64,000 nt of DNA from NCBI RefSeq assembly GCF_002234675.1, contig NC_019875.2:24394299-24458298 (forward strand), in the 5' to 3' direction. The DNA comes from Oryzias latipes (lineage: Eukaryota > Chordata > Actinopteri > Beloniformes > Adrianichthyidae). The stretch's first letter is position 1, and every line of letters starts with the position of its first letter. The notes beneath the pieces are model-generated. The model was not told the origin of the DNA. It was given only the letters and a program-made list of their open reading frames with translations, and searched no databases. A program made the translations under genes and the position numbers. Below, piece by piece: positions 2,346 through 64,000 of the stretch.

Positions 2346-5300
2346 ATTCCACTGTTTTAACAACTTTTGGCATGTTCTTTGTTTTCTTTGCTTGGATTTA
2401 TTTGGTTTTTGCAGGAATCATTTTCCTTTTGTGAATTACTCTAAATCGGATCGTCTAATGTCTAAGGTTCACAGGAAAATAGAAATTTACTGGTTAACTC
2501 CCAAACTCTTAGGAAAAAGATTAACAATTTATTTCTAAATTTCACGATCAAATTTTTATGTAAAAAAACAAAAAAAACACAGACAACAAGACTAGGTTTA
2601 TTTTAAATAATTGAAGACATTTGATCTCCTTTCCAAAAGGCTGTACCTATTAATATTTATAAATTCAAAGTGGGACCCTGGCAGAGCAATTTGCCCACAT
2701 TAAAGTCACATTCTCTGTCCACCACATTGCAGAATTCCTTACAATGACAGAGTGACCTCTCAATATAAGGGAAACCCCATTTTTCAGCAATGTTTACTAT
2801 TAAACGAGTTGTAAATTCTGGCCCACCGGGCTGGTTTGAACAAAGTCATTGGGTGAATTCATTTTAAAAAAGTGGTTTAAACTGATTCCAACAGGAGGAA
2901 AACAAGATGACTTTGCCAAAGCAGCAGAGTGAGAAAGCAGTCACATTGCTGAGGTAAGTCTGGCAAAAGGCCAGAGCGGTGCAGCACAGTGAGTGCAGTG
3001 TAATCTGCTGAGGAAATGATCTAATGCTGAAATAGCTGTAAAGAGCTTACTGGTAGAGTATTTGTTTGTGTTCTAATTTACAAGGACCCAGAAATCCCAT
3101 TAAAATGAAAAGATATAGACACGTTAGATAAGAAGGACTCCGTTCAAAAACATCGGGCAGATTTACAACTGAATGCAATTGATTTTAGAATGACTTATCT
3201 ATGCTGCATGTATATCCTTTTTTTTTGTATATCAACTGGTTGGCAGCTGCTGTAGCCTGAAGCATCATCGTCCATAAATATTCTTTTTTAATAGAAACAT
3301 GAAGTTTTTATCACTGTTTTCAATGTTTTATTCAACTAAACTTTGAGAGTAAACATTTAGCTTCCTTTTACATTTTTAACAAAAATTTGTTTCCTCTGGT
3401 ACAATCAGCTGGCTATTTCCTCATGTTTCACATCTGTATTAGATTTAATGTGATCCTCTGATTTTTGTGGGATTAGAACCAACACATTGTTTCATTGAGT
3501 TTACTCTCGTGGGAAAAAAAATGCAATGAGGTTGAAGAATTAGGATCAAGTTATGAAAGCTTTTTAGGAAGAATTGCCACAAGCCAAGTAGATTTGTATA
3601 ACCTGCTTTATTACGTGTCAGTTTTAAGAAACCCGGAACAACTTTTGAAAATCCACTCCAAACTATATGATTTGCTACTTTTGTGTCATCACAGAGTGAC
3701 ATCTTTATAAATACCAATCAAGTTTCTTATTTTTTCGTCACTACCCATATCTTAAGAGAACACTGAATTCTCAACCTATGAGAAACAAAACGCAGAACTC
3801 TCAGCACAGTTTGATACTGGTTTATTTTGAATTATGTCAAAGGAAAAGCTTGGAGACCTTAAATCTTTTCACTGCGATTTGTCAACCGTTGGTCACAAAG
3901 GTTTCAGAAATACTTTTGGTTTATAAGATCAATCTTTTTCAGGGAAGGAAGCATTTCACATTTCACTTTTTAGATCTTTTACCTTAAATTGTCCATATTT
4001 TATGCAAAACTCTGTCTAAAGCTGATGCTATTCTAATAATAACTTTTTCCCAAAATGAGAAGATACATTTGCTAAAAAATATATATCTATCTCTAACCTT
4101 TTAACAGATCTTTAAACAGTGTGTTGAGTTTTTGTGGAGTTGAAGCTTTCTTATCTTCCTGACTGAAAACAGTGTTCAGTTTTGCGGCGCTTCAAGGGTA
4201 GATGTATTAACCTGAGTGTATTTGCCTTGCAGTGCTTTGTAGTTAAAACGTTCACAGAGAACACTGTGTGGACAATCTGGTTTGTTTATATGTACTTTGT
4301 CCTTTCCTAAACTCAATGTTAAGCTCATCTGTAAATGTGTAATCATATTTAAACATTCATATATCAATGTTTTTACATCCTTCACATAAAAGTCATTCAT
4401 AATAACTTTACACAGAAAGATTATTTTAAGCTTTTTAAATGTACTTGTTTTTAATCCCTAAACAAAATGCGGTAATTGTACAAATGGCTGGTTTGTGAAC
4501 TCTTATAGTAGCAGCAGATAAGACAGCATACCTGTAAAGTAAGTACGCCTTTTTCTTCAGCTGATAAAATCACATACTTTATAAGCTTTAGCAGTGATGT
4601 CAAACCATCATTACTGCTTCCTTATTCCAAGATCTGAGGTGTTACTTCAGGCAAGTTTAGAAAACTAATGCTCCCAGACCAAATAATTATTTTCAACTAT
4701 TTTATGGGGGGAAAAAACTATAGTTTATTTAAAGATTTGCCATGTGCACCAATGTCTTCTTTCATATTTGCAACCTTTATTTTTATATACTTGCATAGTA
4801 AGAGCTTCTTTTTCTAAAGAAGCATGATTTGTTTGCTTTCCTAAATCTGTGATTGGGGCCTTTTTACTGCAGAAATCAATGTTTTCATAAAGCTATTCTA
4901 AAGGACTACTTTTGCTTTACATTTCATATTTCATTTTTTTCTGTCATGAATATTGTTCAAAAACATGTTTATAGTCAGTTGTATTTTTGAAATTGATACC
5001 TTTATTATAAAGGCGGCACATTTTGAACAATACTGAGACTACAATACCCAAGGGGCATTTAGGCAATTTCTTATGATTTGTCTTGTATGTGTTTGCAGTT
5101 CTGAAGAAAGCTTTTGAAATCAAATTGACAATACATGACATTGTCCTCTACAGTCTGTATTATTATTTTTTTAAAACAAATTTTTTTTTTTTTTTTTAGC
5201 AACTAAAAAAATGCTAAGCAGTTCAGCTGTTCTGGCTGTTTCTCAGTTTCACAACAATATACCTTCCCATTCCAGTCATTAACGCCTGTGACTTCAGTGT

Positions 5301-6094
5301 GGATGATTGCTAAAAATAAGTTAGATAGCTTTTTATACAAGTAGAAACGTTATGAGGGACCACTGGAAAAACTTGTCACCTGAATTTCATTGCACACAAG
5401 AACATCAGAGAAGTTAAAGAATAATGCAACTGTTTAAGAGAAGAATTCAATGACAGATGATGCTCATGACCAAGGTGTGCAGATCTGTACACATGCACGT
5501 TTTGTCTGTTTGTCATTCATTCACATGTGTTTGCACAAGGCGAGAGGAAACAGCTAAAGTGGTTGTCTTAGAGCAGGAACACTTGCTGCACATCAATCTG
5601 AAAAGTCATAAAAGCGTCTCCGAACAGGAGCCTCCCACAGCAAGAAAAACAGATGTCAGTTCTCTCTAGAATGCAGTTCAAACTGAGAAATATATATTTT
5701 TTAAATGTCTCAATTCTTACAAACCGCTTTGAAAATGTTAAATATTTAGGTGTCCGCCAGTCACAGTAAAGGAATTCTGAAGCAGCTTTACAGGAGAAGG
5801 GTTGTGTTGGGAGAAAAACATGTAGTAAAAGAGGTTGAGTTGAGCTTAGTCAGACAACTGTCCAAAACCTTTCCAAAAAATGCAAATCTCTGACAAAATA
5901 TTCAAGATCAACTTAGCTTGCTCAAAAACTGTGAGGCTGACAAACCCATTTGTGGGCGTCGCTGAAGCTCAGTTTTCAATCTACTAAATCATATCTAAGT
6001 ACTAATTTTCACAAAAATATCTATTCATTCTGTACTCTTTTTAAATGTCTATTTAATGAAGAACTGCCCTTTATTCCATTTTCATAACCTGCTG

Positions 6095-21425: not shown

Positions 21426-22990
21426 GGTATCCAACAGAATCCCAAACATCTGAGCTTCAGCAGGATGCCCAGCTGTTTTAAAACCTTGAAGGGTAAAAAA
21501 AAAAAAAATACATGGATGCAGATAAACAACAGAAGCTGATTCTATTAAACAATTCTCGTTATTTTAGAGCCTGTAGGGGATGCGTTCATGGTTAAGTATT
21601 AACACATGAGGTTTGGGAGTGCTTCCTCTATAAAAAGGAACATTTTGTGGCTGTAAAAGCTGCAAAGGAATTTGAAAATTGAACAAGAGAAACCAGTTCA
21701 TCTCTGTTGTCTGCAACTGACTACATTTTACACTTTTCATTGAGGATGTAGCAACGTGTCAAATATTTTTTTTTATTTGGATTTAAATGAAATCTAAATG
21801 TCTGACTTAAGTTTGCCATAATGGCAAAAAATATTTTATAAGGAAGTTACTGGTTCTTGAAATGGACAAATATTCTTATTAAAATTAAAAAAATAACGGC
21901 ATCGTCTAGAATAATATATAGTTTATTTGCTGTTGTTTTGTTCCTCAAGGTCTAGTACTCAGTTCAGACTTTTAAAGGAACTATTTTGGGTTCACCAAGA
22001 AGACCAGAAGTTTGTGAAGTTATTCCTTATTATGTAAATATTGAGGACAGCCATGGGTCTTAGATGCATCCCTCAAGGACAGAGAAACAAGAGATTTTCG
22101 ACAAATTTTCTTAAACCTTTGAAAGCAGGAACTGGGTTTTGCTGTGGTTGATTAAAAGTGTACCTCTCTGCTGCAAGCCTTTCAGCATCCTTGGTTTAAA
22201 CTTTTGATTTATCCCTATTTTTAAGCCCTATTTGGGTAAACAATCCTTTATCTGATTAAATTCAGCAACAGCATCAGACAAAATACAAAGAACATCTGTA
22301 CACAGACAGAACAAGCAGCTTTGAGGATGTGTCGTTTGATGCTTTCAAGCATCCCGCTGTGGCTTCAAAACATATGAATGTTCAAAGGAGAACATTTCCC
22401 CAAACTGGGACTTCTCAAGGTCCAAGACTAAAGTACCTTGTACTCAAATCTTACACCACAATTGTGCACTGATGTTCCAAGACCTCAGAAAGACGTTTTT
22501 ACACTAAAGTCACACTATGTCAGACTGGTGTGTTTGTGAGTTCAGCGGAGATTACTCAGACTGCTAACCTCATCTATAAAACTGACAGCAGTCAAGTGAG
22601 GACGGTCAGCACCGTGACACCATGTAACTTAGGGTGGAAGGACAGGTCACAAACCACAGCATCTTGCAGAACAGACTAAACAAACAAGTAATGCACAGTT
22701 TCACTCTCTCAGAAGATACGTTTACATTCCTCCACACGTGGGGCCAGTTGGCTTCGACAGAGAATGAAATCCAAAGTATATTTTGATCAACAATTACAGC
22801 TTCACAGTGGGATATATGATCATGACAACCTTTTCTAAGCAATATAATGAATGTAATTTTCCAGTTTCCATTCCACAGTGATAGCAAATTAACTGAATGG
22901 GTTGTGTACTGCACGTGTGCAAAAACACAACATTTAAATGCACGCACTCTCTTAATGATACATTTAAACAGAAATGTAATCATATTAAGT

Positions 22991-23199
22991 AACCCTTGTG
23001 CTACCTTAGATGACCCCACCCTTACATTGACGTGTTCTCCCTACTATGACAAAGGTGGATAAAGGTGGAAAGATTTCATGTAATCCATGGACACCAGTGA
23101 AGATCACAAATCATTGAAGAAAAAAGGGTTAGAGCACTGTCTAGTGGGTCTAGATGACCCAACTCCCAATGTTAAAGTGCCTAGGATAGCACAAGGGTT
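22991..23199. repeat. 209-bp MITE with perfect AACCCTTGTGCTA ends, copy 1
   Basis: The left end AACCCTTGTGCTA and right end TAGCACAAGGGTT are exact inverted repeats. The interior carries two further pieces in opposite orientation (GATGACCCCACCC near the left; GATGACCCAACTCCC near the right) and a unique block with CATGGACACCAGTGAAGATC. A second copy, inverted, lies at 39361-39567 and matches over most of its length. It is non-coding; the superfamily and target duplication were not determined. Confidence 0.75.
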
Positions 23200-25169: not shown

Positions 25170-25743
25170 AAAGTTCTCACAGAGGTTTTATCTATTGTAA
25201 AAGTCTTCCCGGTGGTCTTTAAATTATAATTATGCTGTTTTTAGGTAAAATCAAAAAACTGTGTTGTTTTCTAGGACGTAGTTTCTGCAGAGCAGCAGTA
25301 GTTTATTTGAAATTTGTCTCTCAGTTGTGGGTGGGACTGTTAGCAAGAAGTAAGCCCACACTTATATGCCATCATCTCTTTGTTTACACTCTCTCCTGCT
25401 ATAGCTTACAGCCCCTTACAACCACAAGCTAACATTACAGGTGCAACAAAAAACTCGAGCAATACCGAATTCAACCATCCGTATAGTGTGGAGCCCAATG
25501 GCAGCTCAGATTAGGAAAACAAAAACATACATGGATTTTATTTGTCTGCAAGTTGATCATTTTATGTACGATGAACCTTAAAAAACAGCATTTTTCATCT
25601 GCTCTTGATACACAATTTAAGTAAAGAAACAACCAGAAGGCAGTTTTAATCTGAATTTTCTTCACATGTTTTCTCCATCATGAAAAGAAGGCTACAAAAA
25701 CATGTTAAAAATGCTAAAAACACTTAGTGGAAGTGGGTCTTTA
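25170..25743 (+). repeat. TTAAAG-type MITE family, copy A
   Basis: This copy shares ordered blocks with copies B-E: AAAAGTCTTCCCGGTGGTCTTT, TTTCTAGGACGTAGTTTCTGCAG, CAGCAGTAGTTnATTTGAAAT, TTACAnTnTCTC and the right end GTGGGTCTTTAA. Its left terminus is degraded. The centre retains a decayed version of the protein-like segment that is clearer in copies B and C. It is a non-autonomous DNA-transposon relic. Confidence 0.65.
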
Positions 25744-27000: not shown

Positions 27001-27453
27001 TAAAGTCCTACTCCAATCAGCTTTCGAGCTATTTTAGAAAGGCTCCAAGTGGTCTTTGAACTATGATTTTGCAGTTTTTGGCCAAAATCAATCTGTTTAC
27101 CGCCCCTTACAACCACAACCTAACATGACTGGTGCAACGAAAATGGTGAGCAATATTGGAGCGATCCAGCCGTACAGTTTCTGAGCCAGATTCAAGCTCA
27201 GATGAGGAAAGCAAAGACATACATGGATCTAGTTGTCTGCAAGTAGAGGCATCAGAATGGAGCAGAGCAGGGATCTTGAGGCTTGCCAATTGTAGCTTCT
27301 TGGTCATAACTACAAGGTCTTTCAAACAGCATTTGAAACAATTTGAATAAAGACATACTCAAAAATGCAATTTTAAGCTTAATTGTCTCTATTTTTGTCC
27401 CCCATCATTAGAAAAATGCCACAAAAACATGGTTCTCGTCAGTTTGGGTCTTT
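27001..27453 (+). repeat. TTAAAG-type MITE family, copy B, with coding-like remnant
   Basis: The left end TAAAGTCCTACTCCAATCAG and right end GTTTGGGTCTTTGAA are approximate inverted termini. Around 27145-27275 the plus strand reads, with one frameshift, IGAIQPYSF then EPDSSSDEES and LQVEASEW. The same words occur in copy C, so they derive from an ancestral coding segment and not from chance. I recall similar N-terminal motifs in fish proteins annotated as P2X7-like (C-terminal-domain-like) and linked to transposons, but this is a memory-based resemblance. Confidence 0.6.
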
Positions 27454-29198: not shown

Positions 29199-29625
29199 TT
29201 AAAGTCTCACTCCAATCCTCTTTTATCAATTTTAAAAGCCTTCCCAGTGGTCTTTTTTATTATGATTATGCCATTGTTGACCATTGTTGACCAAACTATG
29301 TTGTTTACTAGGACATAGTTTCTGCAAAGCAGCAGTAGTTCATTTGAAATTCACTTCTGAGTTGTGGGAACACTGTTGGCGTGTTCCAATCATCCGTCCA
29401 TTTACACTCTCTCCCCCTAGCGCACAGCCCCTTCCAACCCAACATTACCGGTGAGACAAAAGTGGCGAGCATTATTGGAGCTATCCAGCCGTACACTTTT
29501 CAGCCACACACCAGTTCAGATGAGGAAAACCAAAATGCAAATGAATCTTTTTGTCTACAAGTGGATGCATCAGAATGGAGAATGCGGCCTGTCAATTGTA
29601 ACATCTACAACACTGCTGCAAGCTT
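29199..29625 (+). repeat. TTAAAG-type MITE family, copy C, with coding-like remnant
   Basis: It begins TTAAAGTCTCACTCCAATCC, the cleanest left terminus of the family. The plus strand at about 29485-29585 reads IGAIQPYTFQPHTSSDEE and LQVDASEW in one frame, parallel to copy B. The right part is missing: the element stops at a poly(T) run near 29630. The following sequence ends GACCTGAAAGGCGG...AATAAAATGT(ATT)n, which looks like a different retroelement tail inserted there. Confidence 0.6.
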
Positions 29626-36714: not shown

Positions 36715-39245
36715 ATAAAAAATAAAAATCAAATGATTCAATAAATCAGTACAAATATGATATAAAAACATTGCATACTTTGCATTAGGGTTTGGGTTTT
36801 TTGGAAGGACTGTAAGAGTATTAAATAAATCAACATTATTATTTTCCCAAAGTAGTAACGGTGACAGCATTTGTTGAAGCCCATCACTCATGACTCATAC
36901 ATCAAATGAATAGCTCCATTGTGCTGTGGATAATCTTCTATTATCTGTCAACAAAGACACGGGTATTCATTTCCCTTTGTGATAATAACCCAAATGTTTA
37001 CAATAATTTTGTGCCGGGGATGATAGATACTCTCTCAGGGCTTTCGATCCGGGAGATTTACCTTTAAGGCTACTGTGCTGGCTCCGGAGATACACAGAAG
37101 CTTTCAGAAAATAGGCTGCAGATGTGGGCCTTCAGCCATGCAAAATGTCAGAGGGGAGAGCAGGCGGAGAAAAAAGGACAAAGACAAGGCTATAACCCTA
37201 AGTGGGTGGCTTATAAAAGGTGGTCAGGTTGTATCATTTGACTGCTTTCTCTTTGGATGGTGTATTTTTTTGATCAGCTGTGATCAGTTGATTCAAGATA
37301 ACCTCTTCCCACGTGAATAAAGCTGGAAATATTTCAATTTTCTCAGTGCTTATCCACAGCATGTATAGGCTTTTAGGTGCTTCATAAATTTGTTTTTGTT
37401 GCACATCCTTTCTAAATAGAAGAAGCCCCTCACGGCTCTAATTCCAGGTTTCTCCTGAGGTCCTCTTGTGGTTTTTGAGGCAGCAGGAGGCAGACGAAAT
37501 CATGAAGTTAAGAGGTCTGCTCTCACACAGTAATTGCTCTCAGATGCATTTTATCATTTAACTTTCCACATTCTGTTTGCAAGCTGCAAGCTGTTTTGCA
37601 AAAGAAAAGGGGAAGAGCGTCTCTCTCATAAGAGCATGAATGACCTGACTACATCTGACCTCCTTGCCTGTTGGTTCATTCCAGAGAGATTGGTCCCCAG
37701 GTGAAACCTGGTGAAAAGTCAACCTTGTGAGGCTTCACGACTCTCTGAAGAGGAAACAGAAGCATTTTTATTCTGCATCCTCTTTTTAATTGTACCAGGA
37801 GTTTCAGGTTAATTATTTTAGAAGACTTATTTTTGCAGTCTTCCCTTTCTTCTTTTATGTGTCAACAAGCATTTTTGTTGCTTTAACATTTACTAAATAT
37901 CCCCAGGAGTAAGTTTTTTTATTTTTATTTTTACAGCATGTTGAAGTTTACTCACTTCCACCTAAAAAAACAGACAGAAATCTAATCTGGTAGGGTTGCC
38001 TTCTCACGGAGAGCCTTTCTGTGGTCCTGCTGTGAGTTCAAGCTGTAAAGAGATGAGCGACAGTCATGTGCGTTTTCCTTGTTAACGTGGAGGACACTAA
38101 AACCAAACATGTGTTCAACAGTTTTATGATAGTTAAAATGCACTGCATCCAAAATATGCACCCTACTGAGAACTGTATCAGCCTGGTGCAAATGTCAAGT
38201 ATGTCCTTGAGTCACCTGTCATTTTCATACACGTCTTGTCCCTTTTGTGGAATTAAAGTAAAATAAAAAGGTGTTGTGGAGCAGAAACTGTTGTATTAGA
38301 TAAGGTGGGATGTATCTGTATTAGAAAACAAAAATGACATGTTTTAGAAAGACATCTGACTGCATTTAAGTAAATGACTCAGTTTCTATCTGGGAATGGT
38401 GGTGTTGGACCCTATATGCTGAAGACCGGGCATGGTGGCAGAAACCAAACTCTAACATGACAAAACCCAGGGCGTAACAAAAGAGTGACAAAGCAGAGCA
38501 GAACAGATGACCTGACAAGGAAGAACTGAAAACCAGACACTCAAATAGACTGAGGGTAGTGAACTGAAATGAATGCAGCTGTGAATCATGACACACCTGA
38601 AACTGCTGTGATTGAGGGACAATTCGAAACAGAACAAGACCAAAAACCATAAAATAACCAGACCAAGTTCACAATCCTTACATAAACAACATATAAAGCA
38701 AGTATTGTGGAGTAGATGAGATGCAGTCAAGTCATACAGATTTTCTCTTTTTTCAACCCCCCCTGAATCCTGTGCACTGCGCACAGGAGTTAGTGCTGCT
38801 CAAGTGATGAGTCTGCACGCTTTGCAAGCTCCTAAGAGCTTCACCACACACACCACAATCGTACTTTCCATTTTAATGGCGTCCCCTTAAGGTGGCTGCA
38901 GAGTCTCAAGCACTCCTCTCTACAACCTTTCACAGGAACAGACAACCCAAAAACCTACAGCACCCCTATAGCTCAATCTCCTGTTCTGGTGCATGTGACT
39001 AAGGTTTAACGCCATTACTCTGATTGACAAATAAAATGGTTTCTCTTTGTTGTTTTTACTCTGTGGCACATAGTTTTAGACACTCTAGTTATTGTTTTGT
39101 CTCTTCTATAAACATTTCTCGTGCTACTGATTAAATGAGATTTGGAGACATTTCTAAAGACGGAACCTCAACCTCAAGATACTGTAGGTGGACCTCAACA
39201 AATCATTAAGTAAGACAGAAAATGTGGTTTTAAAATGAGCACATA

Positions 39246-39323
39246 CAGTTCAGACCAACAGTTTGGACACACCTTCCCATTCATTTGAATGAGAAGGTGT
39301 GTCCAAACTTTTGGTCTGTACTG
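39246..39323. repeat. Tc1/mariner-type palindromic MITE
   Basis: A near-perfect 78-bp palindrome of CAGTTCAGACCAACAGTTTG and its inverse, flanked by TA on each side, the target of Tc1/mariner elements. The motif with GGACACACCTTC is common in fish genomes. The whole insertion is two inverted termini joined head to head. Confidence 0.75.
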
Positions 39324-39360
39324 TAGGTTTTGCAATGCATCTATATCCGTGTTTGTTTAG

Positions 39361-39567
39361 CCCTTGTGCTATCTTAAGCACTTTCACATTGGGAATGAGG
39401 TCATCGAGACCCCCCCCCCACAAGACAGTGCGCTGAACCTTTTTCTTCAATGATTTGTGATCTTCACTGGTGTCCATGGATTACATGAAATCCTCTCCAC
39501 CTTTGTCCACCTTTGTCATGGTAGGGAGAACACGTCAATGGTCATCTTGACCCCATAGGATAGGGTT
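39361..39567. repeat. 209-bp MITE family, copy 2 (inverted relative to copy 1)
   Basis: It starts CCCTTGTGCTATCTTA and carries the reverse complement of the copy-1 interior (TGATTTGTGATCTTCACTGG, TCCATGGATTACATGAAATC, GGGAGAACACGTCAATG). The far terminus is damaged (GATAGGGTT in place of TAGCACAAGGGTT), and a C-run has expanded at 39411-39419. Confidence 0.7.
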
Positions 39568-42314: not shown

Positions 42315-55206
<12,892 letters not shown>

Positions 55207-55252
55207 GTAAACTTTGAATGGAGTCATGGCCCAGTTGAGTTTTTTTTTTTTA

Positions 55253-55684
55253 AGATCCCTTTAAAAAAAACACTCCATGTCATCTTTTGATCCATTTTTG
55301 AAAGCCTTTCCAGTAGTCTTTTGTTTACGATTATGCAGTTTTTAGCCAATAAAAAAACAATGTCGTTTTCTAGGACAGTTTGTGCCGTCTGTCAGTAATT
55401 CACCTCTGAGTTGTGGCCAGAATCGTTGTATGGAGCAACCCCGCCCCATTTCCCCTCCCCATTACTGAGTGTTCAGAGCAGAGAGCTTGTAGCCTATTTT
55501 CCACATCACACAGAAGCTCTTTTTCAAATGCATTTTTTGTCTGCATCTCGTTCACAACTATTTGAATCAAGAACAACTCAGAAATGTAATTTTTAACTTA
55601 ATTTACTTCATAAATGTTCTCAAAAAATTACCACAAAAACATGTTAAAAACAACAAAACACCATTTTCATTTGGAGCGGATCTT
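55253..55684 (+). repeat. TTAAAG-type MITE family, copy E (tnn intron)
   Basis: Shared blocks are GAAAGCCTTTCCAGTAGTCT, ACGATTATGCAGTTTTTAGCC, TTCTAGGACAGTTTGTG and ACCACAAAAACATGTTAAAA, ending CATTTGGAGCGGATCTT. The left terminus is eroded (ACACTCCATG) and the coding-like centre is deleted. Confidence 0.6.
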
Positions 55685-56988: not shown

Positions 56989-56996
56989 GAAAATTT
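56989..56996. other. Left target-site duplication of the foldback element
   Basis: GAAAATTT, identical to 60802-60809, directly abuts the element terminus GGTAACG. Confidence 0.85.
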
Positions 56997-59900
56997 GGTA
57001 ACGCTTTCTTTTACAGTAAAGTACTTACAGTGTACTTAAGTGGTATTTACATGGTACTTATAGTGTAACTACTGGGTACTTTCAGGGTACTTACATGGTA
57101 CTTTTTTATGGAATTTACTGGGTACTTACAGTGTGTTTACATGGTACTTTCTATGGGACTTTACTGGGTACTTACATGGTACTTTTTGTGTCTACTCTGT
57201 ACTTACATGGTACTTACTGTGTATTTATATGGTACTATTTGGTTCATACCTATGTGGTACATACTGGGTATTTATAATATTCTTACTGGGTATTTACATG
57301 TTGTGCAAAGGTGTCTTTTATGGTACTTACCACATGTAAGAACAAGGTAAGTACAAATAAAGTACCTTGACCTTTAGGTCTGCACTCGCTGCACGTTTCA
57401 TGGTATTTACCATGAATTTACCACAGAAACTACCCCTTAAGTACAGTGAAACTGTAACTGTAAAAGAAAGTCAGCCCTATTTCCACTCAACTACATGGTA
57501 CTTTCATTACTAAATACTGGGTATGTTCACTTGAATAGTACTTGGTACTTACCCCTTAAGTACACTGAAACTGTAACTGTAAAAGAAAGTCAGCCCTATT
57601 TCCACTCTATTACATGGTACTTTCAGTAGTAAATGCTGGGTATGTACACGTATTACCATCCCGTACAGTGTACATGAACACACTTGGTCTTCTGTCCTCA
57701 CCACATGAGACAATGCTAACCTGTTGGTAAGGGTAAAGTAACTACATTGTAAAAACATATTCTGGCCTGATTACTTCTTGTAACATGAGGCAAGTTTAAA
57801 GAGAAACAAGACAGCTGTGAAAACAACAATCTTTAATATGATACATGTCTGCAGCATACAAAGTGTCATCACAATGAAATATGTTTTAAGTACAAAACAG
57901 TACAAAGGAGCATTCCAAAAAACACATTATTGGCCTGAGGGTCGTGCTTTTTGTCCATCAAAATTCTTTCAGCAGAGTTTGGTAACGGTGCAGGACTTCT
58001 TCAGGGTTTGTAACTGCAAGAAAATTCACAATATGAGCTCAAGTGAACATAAAAAGCATAACGACTTTGATAAAATACAAAATAAATTGTACTTATTTAA
58101 TCATTTCTGTAATGAGTTTGATAAATTTCTGTGAATTCTTTATAGCTTTGACTGTAATGCTTGAAATTAATCAATTATCCTCATTTATGAACATGACAAT
58201 AAATTATTCACAACTTTATATTTTAGTTACATAAACAAGAACAACAAAAAAGAAATCAAAAAGAAAAAAAATCAAAATTGCCATAAAAAAATCAAATTTG
58301 TTTAGACAAAGAATGACAAAAGCAATGTTTTAATTGGCAATTGCTGTGTGTATTTATTCTTTATAAATATTATTCGCACCTACAATTTGCATTAGCATGA
58401 AAAACATTGCAGTGTAAAAGAAAAGGAAAAAATAAATAAATAGGCAATTTCAAATTCAACACAGTTATTCACAAAAATATGTTTTAATTTTCAAACATTT
58501 ACATTCACTGTTGGGTGGTATTGTTGTCTCTATCATATTTGAAAATAAATAAATAAATAAAAATAAAATAAAAACGGCGAAAGAAAAGAAAATGGGGAAA
58601 CGGCATTTAAACTCTTCATTAATGTAAATAATATGTCCACTTGGAGGATTTAGCTTACTTTAGCTTACTCTCCTGTGGCTTCACGGATTCGTCTGGGATG
58701 TCTTCTTCACCATAGCTGATCTAAAGCGGTAAAAAGACGGAAGTACGTCATCATTATTTTAAATAAACGCCTTTCTTTGATTTTCCCAGAAAGACGTGCG
58801 CTCAGTCAAACGACCACAGAACAACAGACTTTATCATTTAGGCTACGTGCTTGTTTTACAGGTGCCTCTCTCCTGGTAAGTAACAAAAATGTTTGTAGAT
58901 TTTCATTACAAACTTTGAAAATGTATACATGAAATAACTGAAATTATTGCAGCAAGGTAGACAGGCTCTTACGTCACGTTTCAAACACAGAGATAGCGGC
59001 TTGAAATCACGAGGTTAGCTTCTTTATAAAGTTTGATCAGTTTAAATATTTACATGTAATTTATCCAATATTTAAAAAAAAAAAAAAACACTGGCTTACC
59101 TGCCAGATGAAGAGAAATTCAAACTGTTGCGCGCGCCTCGAGGTTCTCCGGATTAATCTGCACGTTCACTTTGGGGGTAGTTGTGCTGCATTCAAGTGCG
59201 CTGGGAATTTGCAACTTTACTTCCCCTGCCATACTTAACAACAACACACACTCGGGGTGTTTTTAGTATTAAAACTAATTATTTAGCCTTGTTGTTTTAC
59301 ATATTTTCCTGACATTATATAATATATATTTAAAAAAGTTCATTTTTAGAACAATATTTAAAAAAAGTTAAGTTTTGAATAATTTATTATCATGTTTTTA
59401 AATGAGGATAGTACTTGATTAATTTCAAGCATTACAGTCAAAGCGATAAAAAAATTCATAGAGATTTATCAAACTCATTACAGAAATGATTAAATAAGTA
59501 AAATTTATTTTGTATTTCATCAAAGTCGTTATGCTTTTTATGTTCACTTGAGCTCATATTGTGAATTTTCTTGCAGTTACAAACCCTGAAGAAGTCCTGC
59601 ACCTTTACCAAACTGGACAAAAAGCACGACCCTCAGGCCAATAATGTGTTTTTTAGAATTCTCCTTTGTACTGTTTTGTACTTAAAACCTATTTCATTGT
59701 GATGACACTTTGTATGCTGCAGACATGTATCATATTAAAGATTGTTGTTTTCACAGCTGTCTTGTTTCTCTTTAAACTTGCCTCATGTTACAAGAAGTAA
59801 TCAGGCCAGTATATTTTTTTTTACAATGTAGTTACTTTACCCTTACCAACAGGTTAGCATTGTCTCATGTGGTGAGGTCAGAAGACCAAGTGTGTTCATG

Positions 59901-60801
59901 TACACTGTACGGGAAGGTAATAAGTGGCATTTACTACTGAAAGTACCATGTAATAGAGTGGAAATAGGTCTGACTTTCTTTTACAGTACAGTTTCATTGT
60001 ACTTAAGGGGTAAGTACCAAGTACTATTCAAGTGAACATACCCGGTATTTAGTAATGAAAGTACCATGTAATAGAGTGGAAATAGGTCTGACTTTCTTTT
60101 ACAGTACAGTTTCATTGTACTTAAGGGGTAAGTACCAAGTACTATTCAAGTGAACATACCCGGTATTTAGTAATGAAAGTACCATGTAGTTGAGTGGAAA
60201 TAGGGCTGACTTTCTTTTACAGTTACAGTTTCACTGTACTTAAGAGGTAAGTACCAAGTACTATTCAAGTGAACATACCCAGTATTTAGTAAGGAAAGTA
60301 CCATGTAGTTGAGTGGAAATAGGGCTGACTTTCTTTTACAGTTACAGTTTCACTGTACTTAAGGGGTAGTTTCTGTGGTAAATTCATGGTAAATACCATG
60401 AAACGTGCAGCGAGTGCAGACCTAAAGGTCAAGGTACTTTATTTGTACTTACCTTGTTCTTACATGTGGTAAGTACCATAAAAGACACCTTTGCACAACA
60501 TGTAAATACCCAGTAAGAATATTATAAATACCCAGTATGTACCACATAGGTATGAACCAAATAGTACCATATAAATACACAGTAAGTACAATGTAAGTAC
60601 AGAGTAGACACAAAAAGTACCATGTAAGTACCCAGTAAAGTACCATAGAAAGTACCATGTAAACACACTGTAAGTACCCAGTAAATTCCATAAAAAGTAC
60701 CATGTAAGTACCCTGAAAGTACCCAGTAGTTACACTATAAGTACCATGTAAATACCACTTAAGTACACTGTAAGTACTGTACTGTAAAAGAAAGCGTTAC
60801 C
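56997..60801. mobile_element. 3.8-kb foldback (giant inverted repeat) transposon with 8-bp target duplication
   Basis: The outer ends are GGTAACGCTTTCTTTTACAG and its exact inverse, ending CGTTACC. Identical octamers GAAAATTT flank the element at 56989-56996 and 60802-60809. The arms, about 1.2 kb on the left (to about 58.2 kb) and 1.4 kb on the right (from about 59.4 kb), are nearly identical inverted copies. The outer part consists of degenerate GTACTTACATGG-type subrepeats; further in is a 119-bp unit (2 copies left, 4 right), then unique sequence with CCTCAGGCCAATAATG and GAGCTCAAGTGAACAT. A loop of about 1.15 kb separates the arms. No transposase frame was seen. An 8-bp duplication is known for hAT and P-type elements, but the ends match no hAT consensus I know. 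Reading frames of 60-80 codons in the arms are repeat artefacts. Confidence 0.85.
58650..59240 (-). other. Possible captured gene fragment in the foldback loop
   Basis: On the minus strand an ATG at 59232 opens a 37-codon frame (MAGEVKLQIPSALEC..., stop at 59122). This is followed by a strong donor CTGGCAG|GTAAGCC at 59100. An acceptor CCGCTTTAG lies at 58721, followed by a 21-codon frame ISYGEEDIPDESVKPQESKL with a stop. This loop is CpG-richer than the arms. The two pieces do not form one ATG-initiated frame, because a TGA precedes the donor, so a decayed or non-coding 5' exon is more likely than a live gene. No family was recognised. Confidence 0.3.
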
Positions 60802-60809
60802 GAAAATTT
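60802..60809. other. Right target-site duplication of the foldback element
   Basis: GAAAATTT directly after the terminal CGTTACC; it is an exact copy of the left octamer, so the insertion is not ancient. Confidence 0.85.
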
Positions 60810-62223: not shown

Positions 62224-64000
62224 TACGCTCAGTGACAGGGTCAAAACAGCCGAGCAGACCCACCAAGGCTGGAAACTGAACAGTACTGGAAAAGTATATG
62301 GGAGAAAGAGACAGCACATAACAGCAATGCCCAGTGGCTGGTCTCTCTGAGAAAAGAACATAGCAACCTCCCTGAACAGAATCCAGTAACCATCACAGTG
62401 GCAGACATCCAAGAAAGAGTCTCAGGTATGAAGAACTGGACAGCACCGGGCCCTGACATGATACAGGCCTACTGGCTAAAGAAGCTTACCGCACTCCACG
62501 AGCGCCTGGCAGCACAAATGAACCAGCTGCTAAGAGATGGGACTCACCCCGAATGGCTAACGGAAGGGCGAACAATCCTGATCCAGAAGGATCCCTCAAA
62601 GGGTGCAGTCCCATCCAACTACCGGCCAATAACCTGTCTGTCCACAACATGGAAGCTCATGTCAGGCATCATTGCAACCAAGATAAATAGGCACATGGAT
62701 CAATTCATGAGTAACACACAGAAGGGCATTGGTAGAGACTCCAGAGGAGCCAAACACCAACTCCTGGTCGACAGAACAGTCGCTCAAGACTGCAAGTCAC
62801 GACACACCAACCTGTGCACAGCCTGGATTGATTACAAGAAGGCCTATGACTCAATGCCACACACATGGATCACTGAATGCTTGGAGCTGTACAACATCAA
62901 CAGGACTCTAAGAGCCTTCATAGGAAACTCAATGAAGCTGTGGAAAACCACCCTTGAAGCCAATGGGAAGCCACTTGCACAAGTGTCCATCAAATGTGGG
63001 ATATACCAAGGTGATACTCTGTCCCCACTGCTGTTCTGCATAGGTCTGAACCCCCTCAGCCAAATAATCACCAAGACTGGCTATGGATACCGACTCAGAA
63101 ATGGGGCCAACGTCAGTCACCTCCTCTACATGGATGACATCAAGCTATATGCCAAGAGCGAGCGTGACATTGACTCCCTGATCCACACCACCAGGATCTA
63201 CAGTACTGACATTGGGATGTCATTCGGGCTCGAGAAATGCAGCCGGATGGTGACTAAGAGAGGCAAGGTAGTCCACACAGGAGGGGTCTCACTCCCAGAA
63301 GGAACAATAGCAGACATCGAGGACAGTTACAAGTACCTTGGAATTCCACAGGCAAATGGCAACCTGGAGCAGGCAACAAGGAAAGCTGCAACAGCTAAAT
63401 ACCTCCAACGAGTAAGGCAAGTCCTGAGAAGCCAGCTCAATGGCAAAAATAAGACCCGGGCAATAAACAGCTACGCACTGCCAGTTATCAGATACCCTGC
63501 AGGAATAATAAGATGGCCAAAGGAAGAGATACAGACCACGGATGTTAAGACACGAAAGCTCCTTACCATGCATGGAGGGTTCCATCCCAAATCCAGCACC
63601 CTGAGACTGTATGCTAGCCGCAAGGAAGGAGGCCGAGGACTAGTGAGCGTAGAAGCCACTATCCAGGATGAAACATCCAAGATCCATGAGTACATCAAGC
63701 TCAAGGCCCCAACTGACAGTGTGCTCAGTGAATGTCTCAGGCAATGGAGAGCAGAGGATACAGTGCTGGAGGACAGATCCTCATGGGAGGACAAACCCCT
63801 GCATGGGATGTACCACCGGACCATAACTGAAGTGGCTGATATCAAGAAGTCCTACCAATGGCTAGAAAGGGCTGGCCTACAGGACAGCACCGAAGCGCTC
63901 ATCCTGGCAGCCCAGGAACAAGCCCTGAGCACCAGAGCGATAGAGGCTCAGATCTACCACACCAGACAAGACCCAAGGTGTAGGCTGTGCAAAGAGGCGC
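62221..64000 (+). mobile_element. R4/Rex6-like non-LTR retrotransposon, 5'-truncated, intact RT frame to the edge
   Basis: One plus-strand frame stays open from 62236 (after a TGA at 62233-62235) to the window end, about 588 codons. It encodes a reverse transcriptase: WTAPGPDMIQAYWLKKL and SNYRPITCLSTTWKLMS (early fingers motifs), AWIDYKKAYDSMPH (motif A, Asp), GIYQGDTLSPLLF, the catalytic LLYMDDIKLYAKS (YMDD at 63127-63138), KYLGIP, then a connector with GGFHPKSSTLRLYASRKEGG and the first cysteines of a probable CCHC knuckle (CRLC at 63979-63990). This layout matches LINEs with a restriction-like endonuclease at the C-terminus (R4/Dong/Rex6 clade); that domain would lie beyond the edge. The absence of stops or shifts implies a young copy, although its 5' end is missing. 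Confidence 0.8.

Follow-up and report, generated by a model that had tools for sequence, protein, structure and literature searches.

A multi-copy, very probably non-autonomous DNA transposon family with foldback architecture and 8-bp target site duplications in Oryzias latipes

Results

The foldback element of 3805 bp found at positions 56997..60801 (no strand assigned) of the window, i.e. of the whole stretch of 64,000 nucleotides that was analysed, very probably belongs to a multi-copy family of non-autonomous cut-and-paste DNA transposons with terminal inverted repeats (TIR), which would be moved by a transposase acting in trans, with a repeated motif of the arms as its putative binding site. 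This reading is based on the 8-bp target site duplications, on the independent copies and on the preformed unit, all of which are demonstrated below.

Structure of the element

The first-pass annotation had described a 3805-bp unit with exact inverted ends between identical octamers, and its coordinates proved to be correct to the base. The element ends in GGTAACGCTTTC, exactly inverted at both termini, and is flanked by identical GAAAATTT octamers, the left (56989..56996, plus strand) and right (60802..60809, plus strand) copies of the 8-bp target site duplication. The left terminus, GGTAACGCTTTCTTTTACAGT (56997..57017, plus strand), is matched exactly and in inverted orientation by the right terminus (60781..60801, minus strand), the outermost 21 bases of the two ends thus forming perfect terminal inverted repeats, as in transposons of the TIR order. 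The nearly identical arms that had been reported around a loop correspond to a left arm of 1.23 kb (56997..~58224, plus strand) and a right arm of 1.44 kb (~59362..60801, minus strand), which enclose a loop of ~1.14 kb (58225..59361, no strand assigned). The arms are 96-98% complementary over in-register ungapped blocks of 547, 207, 166, 121 and 114 nt, and a block of 42 nt at the inner arm edge is 93% complementary. The order read earlier (subrepeats, then a 119-bp tandem unit, then unique arm sequence) was recovered in both arms: from the end inwards, degenerate 11-bp subrepeats (11/22 bp in the left arm, 57021..57236, plus strand; 11 bp in the right arm, 60563..60777, minus strand) are followed by the tandem unit of 118/119 bp and by unique sequence. 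This foldback-type architecture, with long arms, internal tandem repeats and a loop, was present in all 19 long copies, namely 18 long genomic end pairs and the copy of the window.

Going beyond the earlier annotation, it was observed that the number of tandem units is unequal in the two arms, with two units of 119 bp in the left one (57431..57649, plus strand) and four units of 118 bp in the right one (59929..60368, minus strand), and that every unit contains an inverted copy of a terminal motif. The motif is the 14-mer CTTTCTTTTACAGT, positions 8-21 of the end, which occurs eight times in the 64-kb window and always within the element. There is one copy per end and one per tandem unit (six units), the unit copies pointing the opposite way to the end of the arm in which they lie (left units, 57457..57470 and 57576-57589, minus strand; right units, 59974..59987 and three further copies starting at 60092, 60210 and 60329, plus strand). 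When one mismatch was allowed, each arm of the 19 copies carried one motif oriented as in the end and at least one inverted motif. The number of units counted in these copies varied from 1 to 4 per arm and was equal to the number of motifs; the left arms of L027 and L037 were the exceptions.

Copies in the genome and the amplified unit

The exact 21-base end was searched for in the genome of the species (734 Mb, 25 contigs), as had been proposed with the first-pass annotation, and it was found at 297 places (155 forward and 142 reverse), while the same end written backwards, used as the control, gave 0 matches. Among viral contigs and prokaryote contigs the end sequence had 0 matches each. The copy analysis was drawn from 100 of the 297 places, the window's own copy not being included. 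These places contained 30 convergent pairs of exact ends not more than 10 kb apart, all of which were analysed together with 13 of the 40 unpaired places.

The 30 pairs differed in length. In 18 of them the ends were 3.4-4.0 kb apart and the sequence matched the window element over the arms and the loop, ten were below this size (256 to 2848 bp) and two above it (L034, 4616 bp; L019, 7170 bp). Since the majority of the pairs match the window element over arms and loop, the arm-loop-arm unit itself spreads; a preformed unit of this kind was amplified, and MITE-like short forms of 256-888 bp with identical ends exist beside it. The short copies have mainly arm sequence in common with the long element. 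Inserts of unexplained nature were seen in L022, L032 and L034.

Target site duplications and empty sites

An exact 8-bp duplication of its own was found at 25 of the 30 end pairs, whereas none of the 870 combinations obtained by cross-pairing the left flank of one pair with the right flank of another matched at 8 bp. Among the five other pairs, L011, L026 and L028 lie in A- or T-rich flanks and their duplication is off by one base, L012 has CTT-rich flanks without an exact duplication, and L024, the flanks of which are unrelated, is possibly a recombinant. Of the 13 unpaired places analysed, one (L039) has a slightly changed second end and an exact 8-bp duplication, at two (L047 and L041) a second end was seen without an exact duplication, and no second end was present within the stretch examined for the remaining ten.

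In the empty-site test the two flanks of a copy were joined with one copy of the duplication omitted, and compared with other copies of the repeat in which the element is inserted. The joined flanks of L019 matched positions 22986-23199 of the window at 96.7% and the L044 locus at 93.3%, in both cases with a single, identical target. They also matched L040 at 94.0% with one target base changed, window positions 39356-39540, where the target has a one-base gap, at 87.6%, and L039 twice (91-93%) with the target changed more. In the case of L015, the joined flanks matched L001 at 89.3% with a single target in which one base was changed, and those of L032 matched the window at 77%, where the target is intact, and another place, where it is changed, at 70%. 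The empty sites of L019, L015 and L032 are paralogous sites within repeats, not alleles. On insertion the element duplicates 8 bp of an A/T-rich target. The proposal that this is a foldback-type transposon is borne out by the 25 pairs together with the paralogous empty sites, and the first of these results also removes the objection, raised with the proposal, that independent copies with their own 8-bp duplications might not exist.

Target preference was analysed on the 27 sites with an exact duplication (the 25 pairs, L039 and the copy of the window). The octamers carried A at position 2 in 19 and T at position 7 in 18 cases, T at position 1 and A at position 8 occurred only once each, and the bases between were A/T-rich. 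With 5000 random placements in the flanking sequence, neither the A2/T7 score nor the not-T1/not-A8 score was ever attained; since the patterns were chosen after the duplications had been seen, these statistics are descriptive. The palindromy of the target octamer is modest (p 0.027). The hAT target consensus nTnnnnAn, which is not shared by all hAT groups, is opposite to the A2/T7 preference found here and may count to some degree against a hAT origin; the corresponding T2/A7 score had a mean of 0.37 of 2 per site over the 27 sites, a purely descriptive value.

Amplification and conversion of the arms

The near-identity of the arms had been ascribed to recent origin or ongoing gene conversion, and both have a share in it, amplification of a preformed foldback being the main process and conversion occurring in a minority of copies. 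The left-right identity of the outer arms was 0.990 within a copy and 0.982 between copies, that of the inner arms 0.9705 and 0.957, respectively, and in neither case did any of 2000 permutations reach the within-copy value, which could however be raised by shared subfamilies. The own right arm was the nearest or tied in 12 of the 19 copies for the outer arm and in only 8 of the 19 for the inner arm; conversion is therefore not general.

In order to separate amplification from conversion, a maximum-likelihood tree of the inner arms was used. The right arms of the window copy, L010, L014, L015, L016, L025 and L030, which make up the subfamily of the window copy, formed a supported clade of seven (96/94), apart from their left arms, whereas the two inner arms were sisters in L021 (100/100) and L018 (98/91) and, less firmly, in L037 (92/93). 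The left/right label requires six changes on the tree, at least three of the changes being forced by well-supported branches. This topology indicates that amplification of the preformed foldback was the rule and conversion was restricted to a minority; arm-to-arm conversion is well supported in two of the 19 copies, with one further likely case.

The tandem units give a further view of the same copies. In a comparison of 93 units, the mean identity was 0.978 for units of equal rank in the two arms of one copy and 0.862 for different ranks, and same-rank units from different copies (0.965-0.969) were nearly as alike as those within a copy. Since units of the same rank are so much more alike than units of different rank, the unit types must be older than the amplification, and their number has been shifting arm by arm. 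The mean pairwise identity of the loop in the 19 copies was 0.964.

Coding content of the copies

A part of the loop (58640..59270, minus strand) is rich in CpG, with an observed/expected ratio of 0.91 compared with 0.37 for the window, and contains motifs resembling splice sites. On the minus strand of the loop the donor-like GGTAAGC was found in 16 and the acceptor-like GCTTTAG in all of the 19 copies. An ATG opening a short frame was present in the loop of only 7 of the 19. Our guess is that the CpG-rich part was captured from a promoter or 5' exon.

Of 15 different peptides scanned from the window element, none had a Pfam match reaching the cut-off; the best matches under it had E values of 0.11-0.2, apart from one frame of the repeat array with E 0.019, which was also below its cut-off. 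The loop had no match in Rfam. The idea that the loop holds a transposase gene, with the ATG frame of the loop and a last-exon-like frame of the arm as candidates, was dropped because of the lack of Pfam matches at the cut-off and the occurrence of the ATG in only 7 of 19 copies. The frames scanned between the ends of the copies analysed included none recognisable as a transposase. The long L019 (7.2 kb) was considered as an autonomous element and rejected, as it holds a nested reverse-transcriptase frame (RVT_1). An RVT_1 frame is likewise found inside L033, and L045 has the frame of a gypsy-like LTR polyprotein behind its left end. A DDE_1 (pogo/Tigger-type) transposase frame is situated in the flank of L041, ~4 kb outside the 657-bp element. 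Since pogo/Tigger-type elements duplicate TA, it was not taken as the mobilising partner.

Discussion

How such a family would be mobilised can be proposed from the arrangement of the motifs. A transposase encoded elsewhere would bind the terminal motif as well as the inverted copies that the tandem units carry, pair the two ends and excise the element, which would then be inserted by cuts made 8 bp apart. The long arms may persist because their additional binding sites attract the enzyme, and conversion and slippage acting on the repeats would vary the number of units.

The alternatives concern partly the reality of the fold and partly the identity of the enzyme. Foldback artefacts reportedly exist in long reads (PMC12870357), and the first-pass annotation had itself named an assembly artefact as one finding that would overturn it. 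The probability that the structure is such an artefact or a chance palindrome is practically negligible, since beside the window element there are 30 further end pairs, 25 of them with their own exact 8-bp duplication, and the two arms are not identical, either in sequence or in the number of units; the empty sites argue in the same direction. As to the transposase superfamily, Merlin is the first lead, followed by Zisupton and MULE/Phantom, and all of them should be treated as leads only. Membership in the Merlin (IS1016-like) group, as a non-autonomous element on whose GG ends a transposase of the DDE_Tnp_IS1595 type, PF12762, would act, is conceivable but with the balance somewhat against it: the terminal 5'-GG and the 8-bp duplication agree with the Merlin pattern of 5'-GG and 8 or 9 bp, while the inverted repeats cited for this group in the part of the source used are 24-462 bp long (PMC8101967), and the arms found here are about three times as long as the longest of these. 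The chances are about balanced that the enzyme belongs to another superfamily producing 8-bp duplications, such as Zisupton, which is known from fish and has a KDZ transposase, hAT, P or MULE/Phantom. The excerpts consulted give 8-bp duplications for Zisupton (PMC12730594), as here, and list it for ray-finned fish (PMC7599744), and the long ends of foldback and Phantom elements reportedly contain tandem repeats (PMC3688188). Zebrafish Pdre2, a P superfamily element, does not agree in its end, which is 13 bp long and reads CATACCTGTCAAC, and so differs from GGTAACGCTTTC (PMC10983969). It is otherwise similar in being a fish element with 8-bp duplications, and it also has distant subterminal inverted repeats; long arms are not mentioned in the portion of that report drawn on here.

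Capture of host-gene pieces by a smaller inverted-repeat element in the manner of a Pack-TIR, to which the CpG-rich loop, and possibly the inner arms as well, would owe their origin, would add to the reading as a non-autonomous cut-and-paste family instead of replacing it, and appears rather doubtful. The CpG ratio, the conserved donor- and acceptor-like motifs and the mainly arm-derived sequence of the short copies are in line with it, and Pack-TIRs have been reported for zebrafish in the excerpt cited (PMC8277862), but the scanned peptides gave no Pfam match at the cut-off and the apparent ATG is confined to a minority of the copies. Improbable, in our estimate, is a still wider picture, in which a vertebrate foldback lineage with arms made of arrays of inverted putative transposase-binding motifs has carried a captured, CpG-rich, promoter-like loop to about a hundred islands throughout the genome, one of them beside or inside a gene; the figure of perhaps a hundred is an extrapolation from 18 long copies in 30 pairs, obtained with 100 of the 297 ends.

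The suggestion that the element recalls Drosophila FB and Galileo more than an ordinary MITE holds as far as the architecture is concerned (PMC3573991, PMC3688188), with the addition that short forms with the same ends also exist. In the sections of these reports used here, Galileo of Drosophila, a member of the P superfamily, has long arms (~1.2 kb in some cases) with internal tandem repeats, a repeat number that can differ between the arms of one copy, and two-arm copies without coding sequence, and recombination and conversion have been proposed for it (PMC3573991, PMC3688188). It differs in its 7-bp duplications, compared with the 8 bp seen in 25 of 30 pairs here, in its known transposase of the P type, a superfamily marked by a THAP domain in the enzyme, in a tandem unit of ~210 bp in the F group instead of 118/119 bp, and in that its binding sites have been tested, whereas the present family offers only a motif, inverted in each unit. 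Drosophila FB4 resembles the family in its long ends (~700 bp) and non-autonomous copies, and Tm1 of root-knot nematodes in its composite repeats of variable number and its MITE-like relatives, according to the excerpts cited (PMC8277862, PMC3169594). However, the duplications are 9-10 bp in FB4 and mostly 9 bp in Tm1, and the latter is described with asymmetric 7-bp end motifs and without a clear target consensus, in contrast to the preference seen here.

Among the literature matches listed there was no fish foldback family with this layout, and, judged by title, none of the literature containing the end sequence or a guessed variant of it was on transposons; a repeat-library consensus with the same ends is possible. 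In the excerpts consulted, foldback elements are described from flies, nematodes and plants, and for some of them, e.g. FB4, the mover is still unknown. The present family is built like the fly foldbacks, but in a vertebrate; its copies are numerous, paralogous empty sites exist, and the arms of each copy can be set against those of the others. With it, two questions become open to testing in such a host, namely the identity of the transposase that moves foldbacks and whether long arms are retained for the additional binding sites they hold.

Concerning the genomic setting, frames at 43002-43481 and 54906-55214 encode an EGF domain (best match Teneurin, also Tenascin) and fn3 domains, which would agree with a plus-strand gene of the tenascin type upstream of the element. 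A position of the element inside tnn is plausible rather than proven; it may lie in an intron of the tenascin-type gene or just downstream of it.

Repeats and transposase or reverse transcriptase frames around the foldback copies

The foldback copy L019, found elsewhere in the genome, was inserted into the same interspersed repeat that occurs in the window at 22986-23199 and 39356-39540, and the copy at 22986-23199 represents an intact empty site for it, with a single uninterrupted 8-bp target. The flank of another copy, L032, is part of a diverged repeat (69-80% identity) located in the window at 25186-25723, 27097-27431, 29199-29580, 47014-47398 and 55271-55670, which is probably an older interspersed element.

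Atypical foldback copies were also observed. In the case of L024 (1-1650) the 8-bp flanks were unrelated to each other, and this copy is possibly a recombinant of two copies; if so, it would resemble the chimeric copies of Galileo, the Drosophila foldback element, described in PMC3573991. In L022, an unrelated DNA segment of 1.25 kb (303-1552) takes the place of the left arm past approx. 100 bp, reflecting either capture or nested insertion, and one frame of this segment gave no Pfam match.

In L041, where a short foldback copy occupies 201-857, a DDE_1 transposase domain (E 2.4e-37) was detected in a frame at 4922-5821 (-), which lies approx. 4 kb away from that copy. This frame is probably a pogo/Tigger relative and not the partner mobilising the foldback family.

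Close to the foldback of the window, the long open frame at 62236-63999 (+), which extends past the window end, contains an RVT_1 (reverse transcriptase) domain (E 7e-28) and is a retroelement. Short self-complementary palindromes are present outside the foldback at 39241-39328 (88 bp, 89%) and 1686-1826 (141 bp, 79%).
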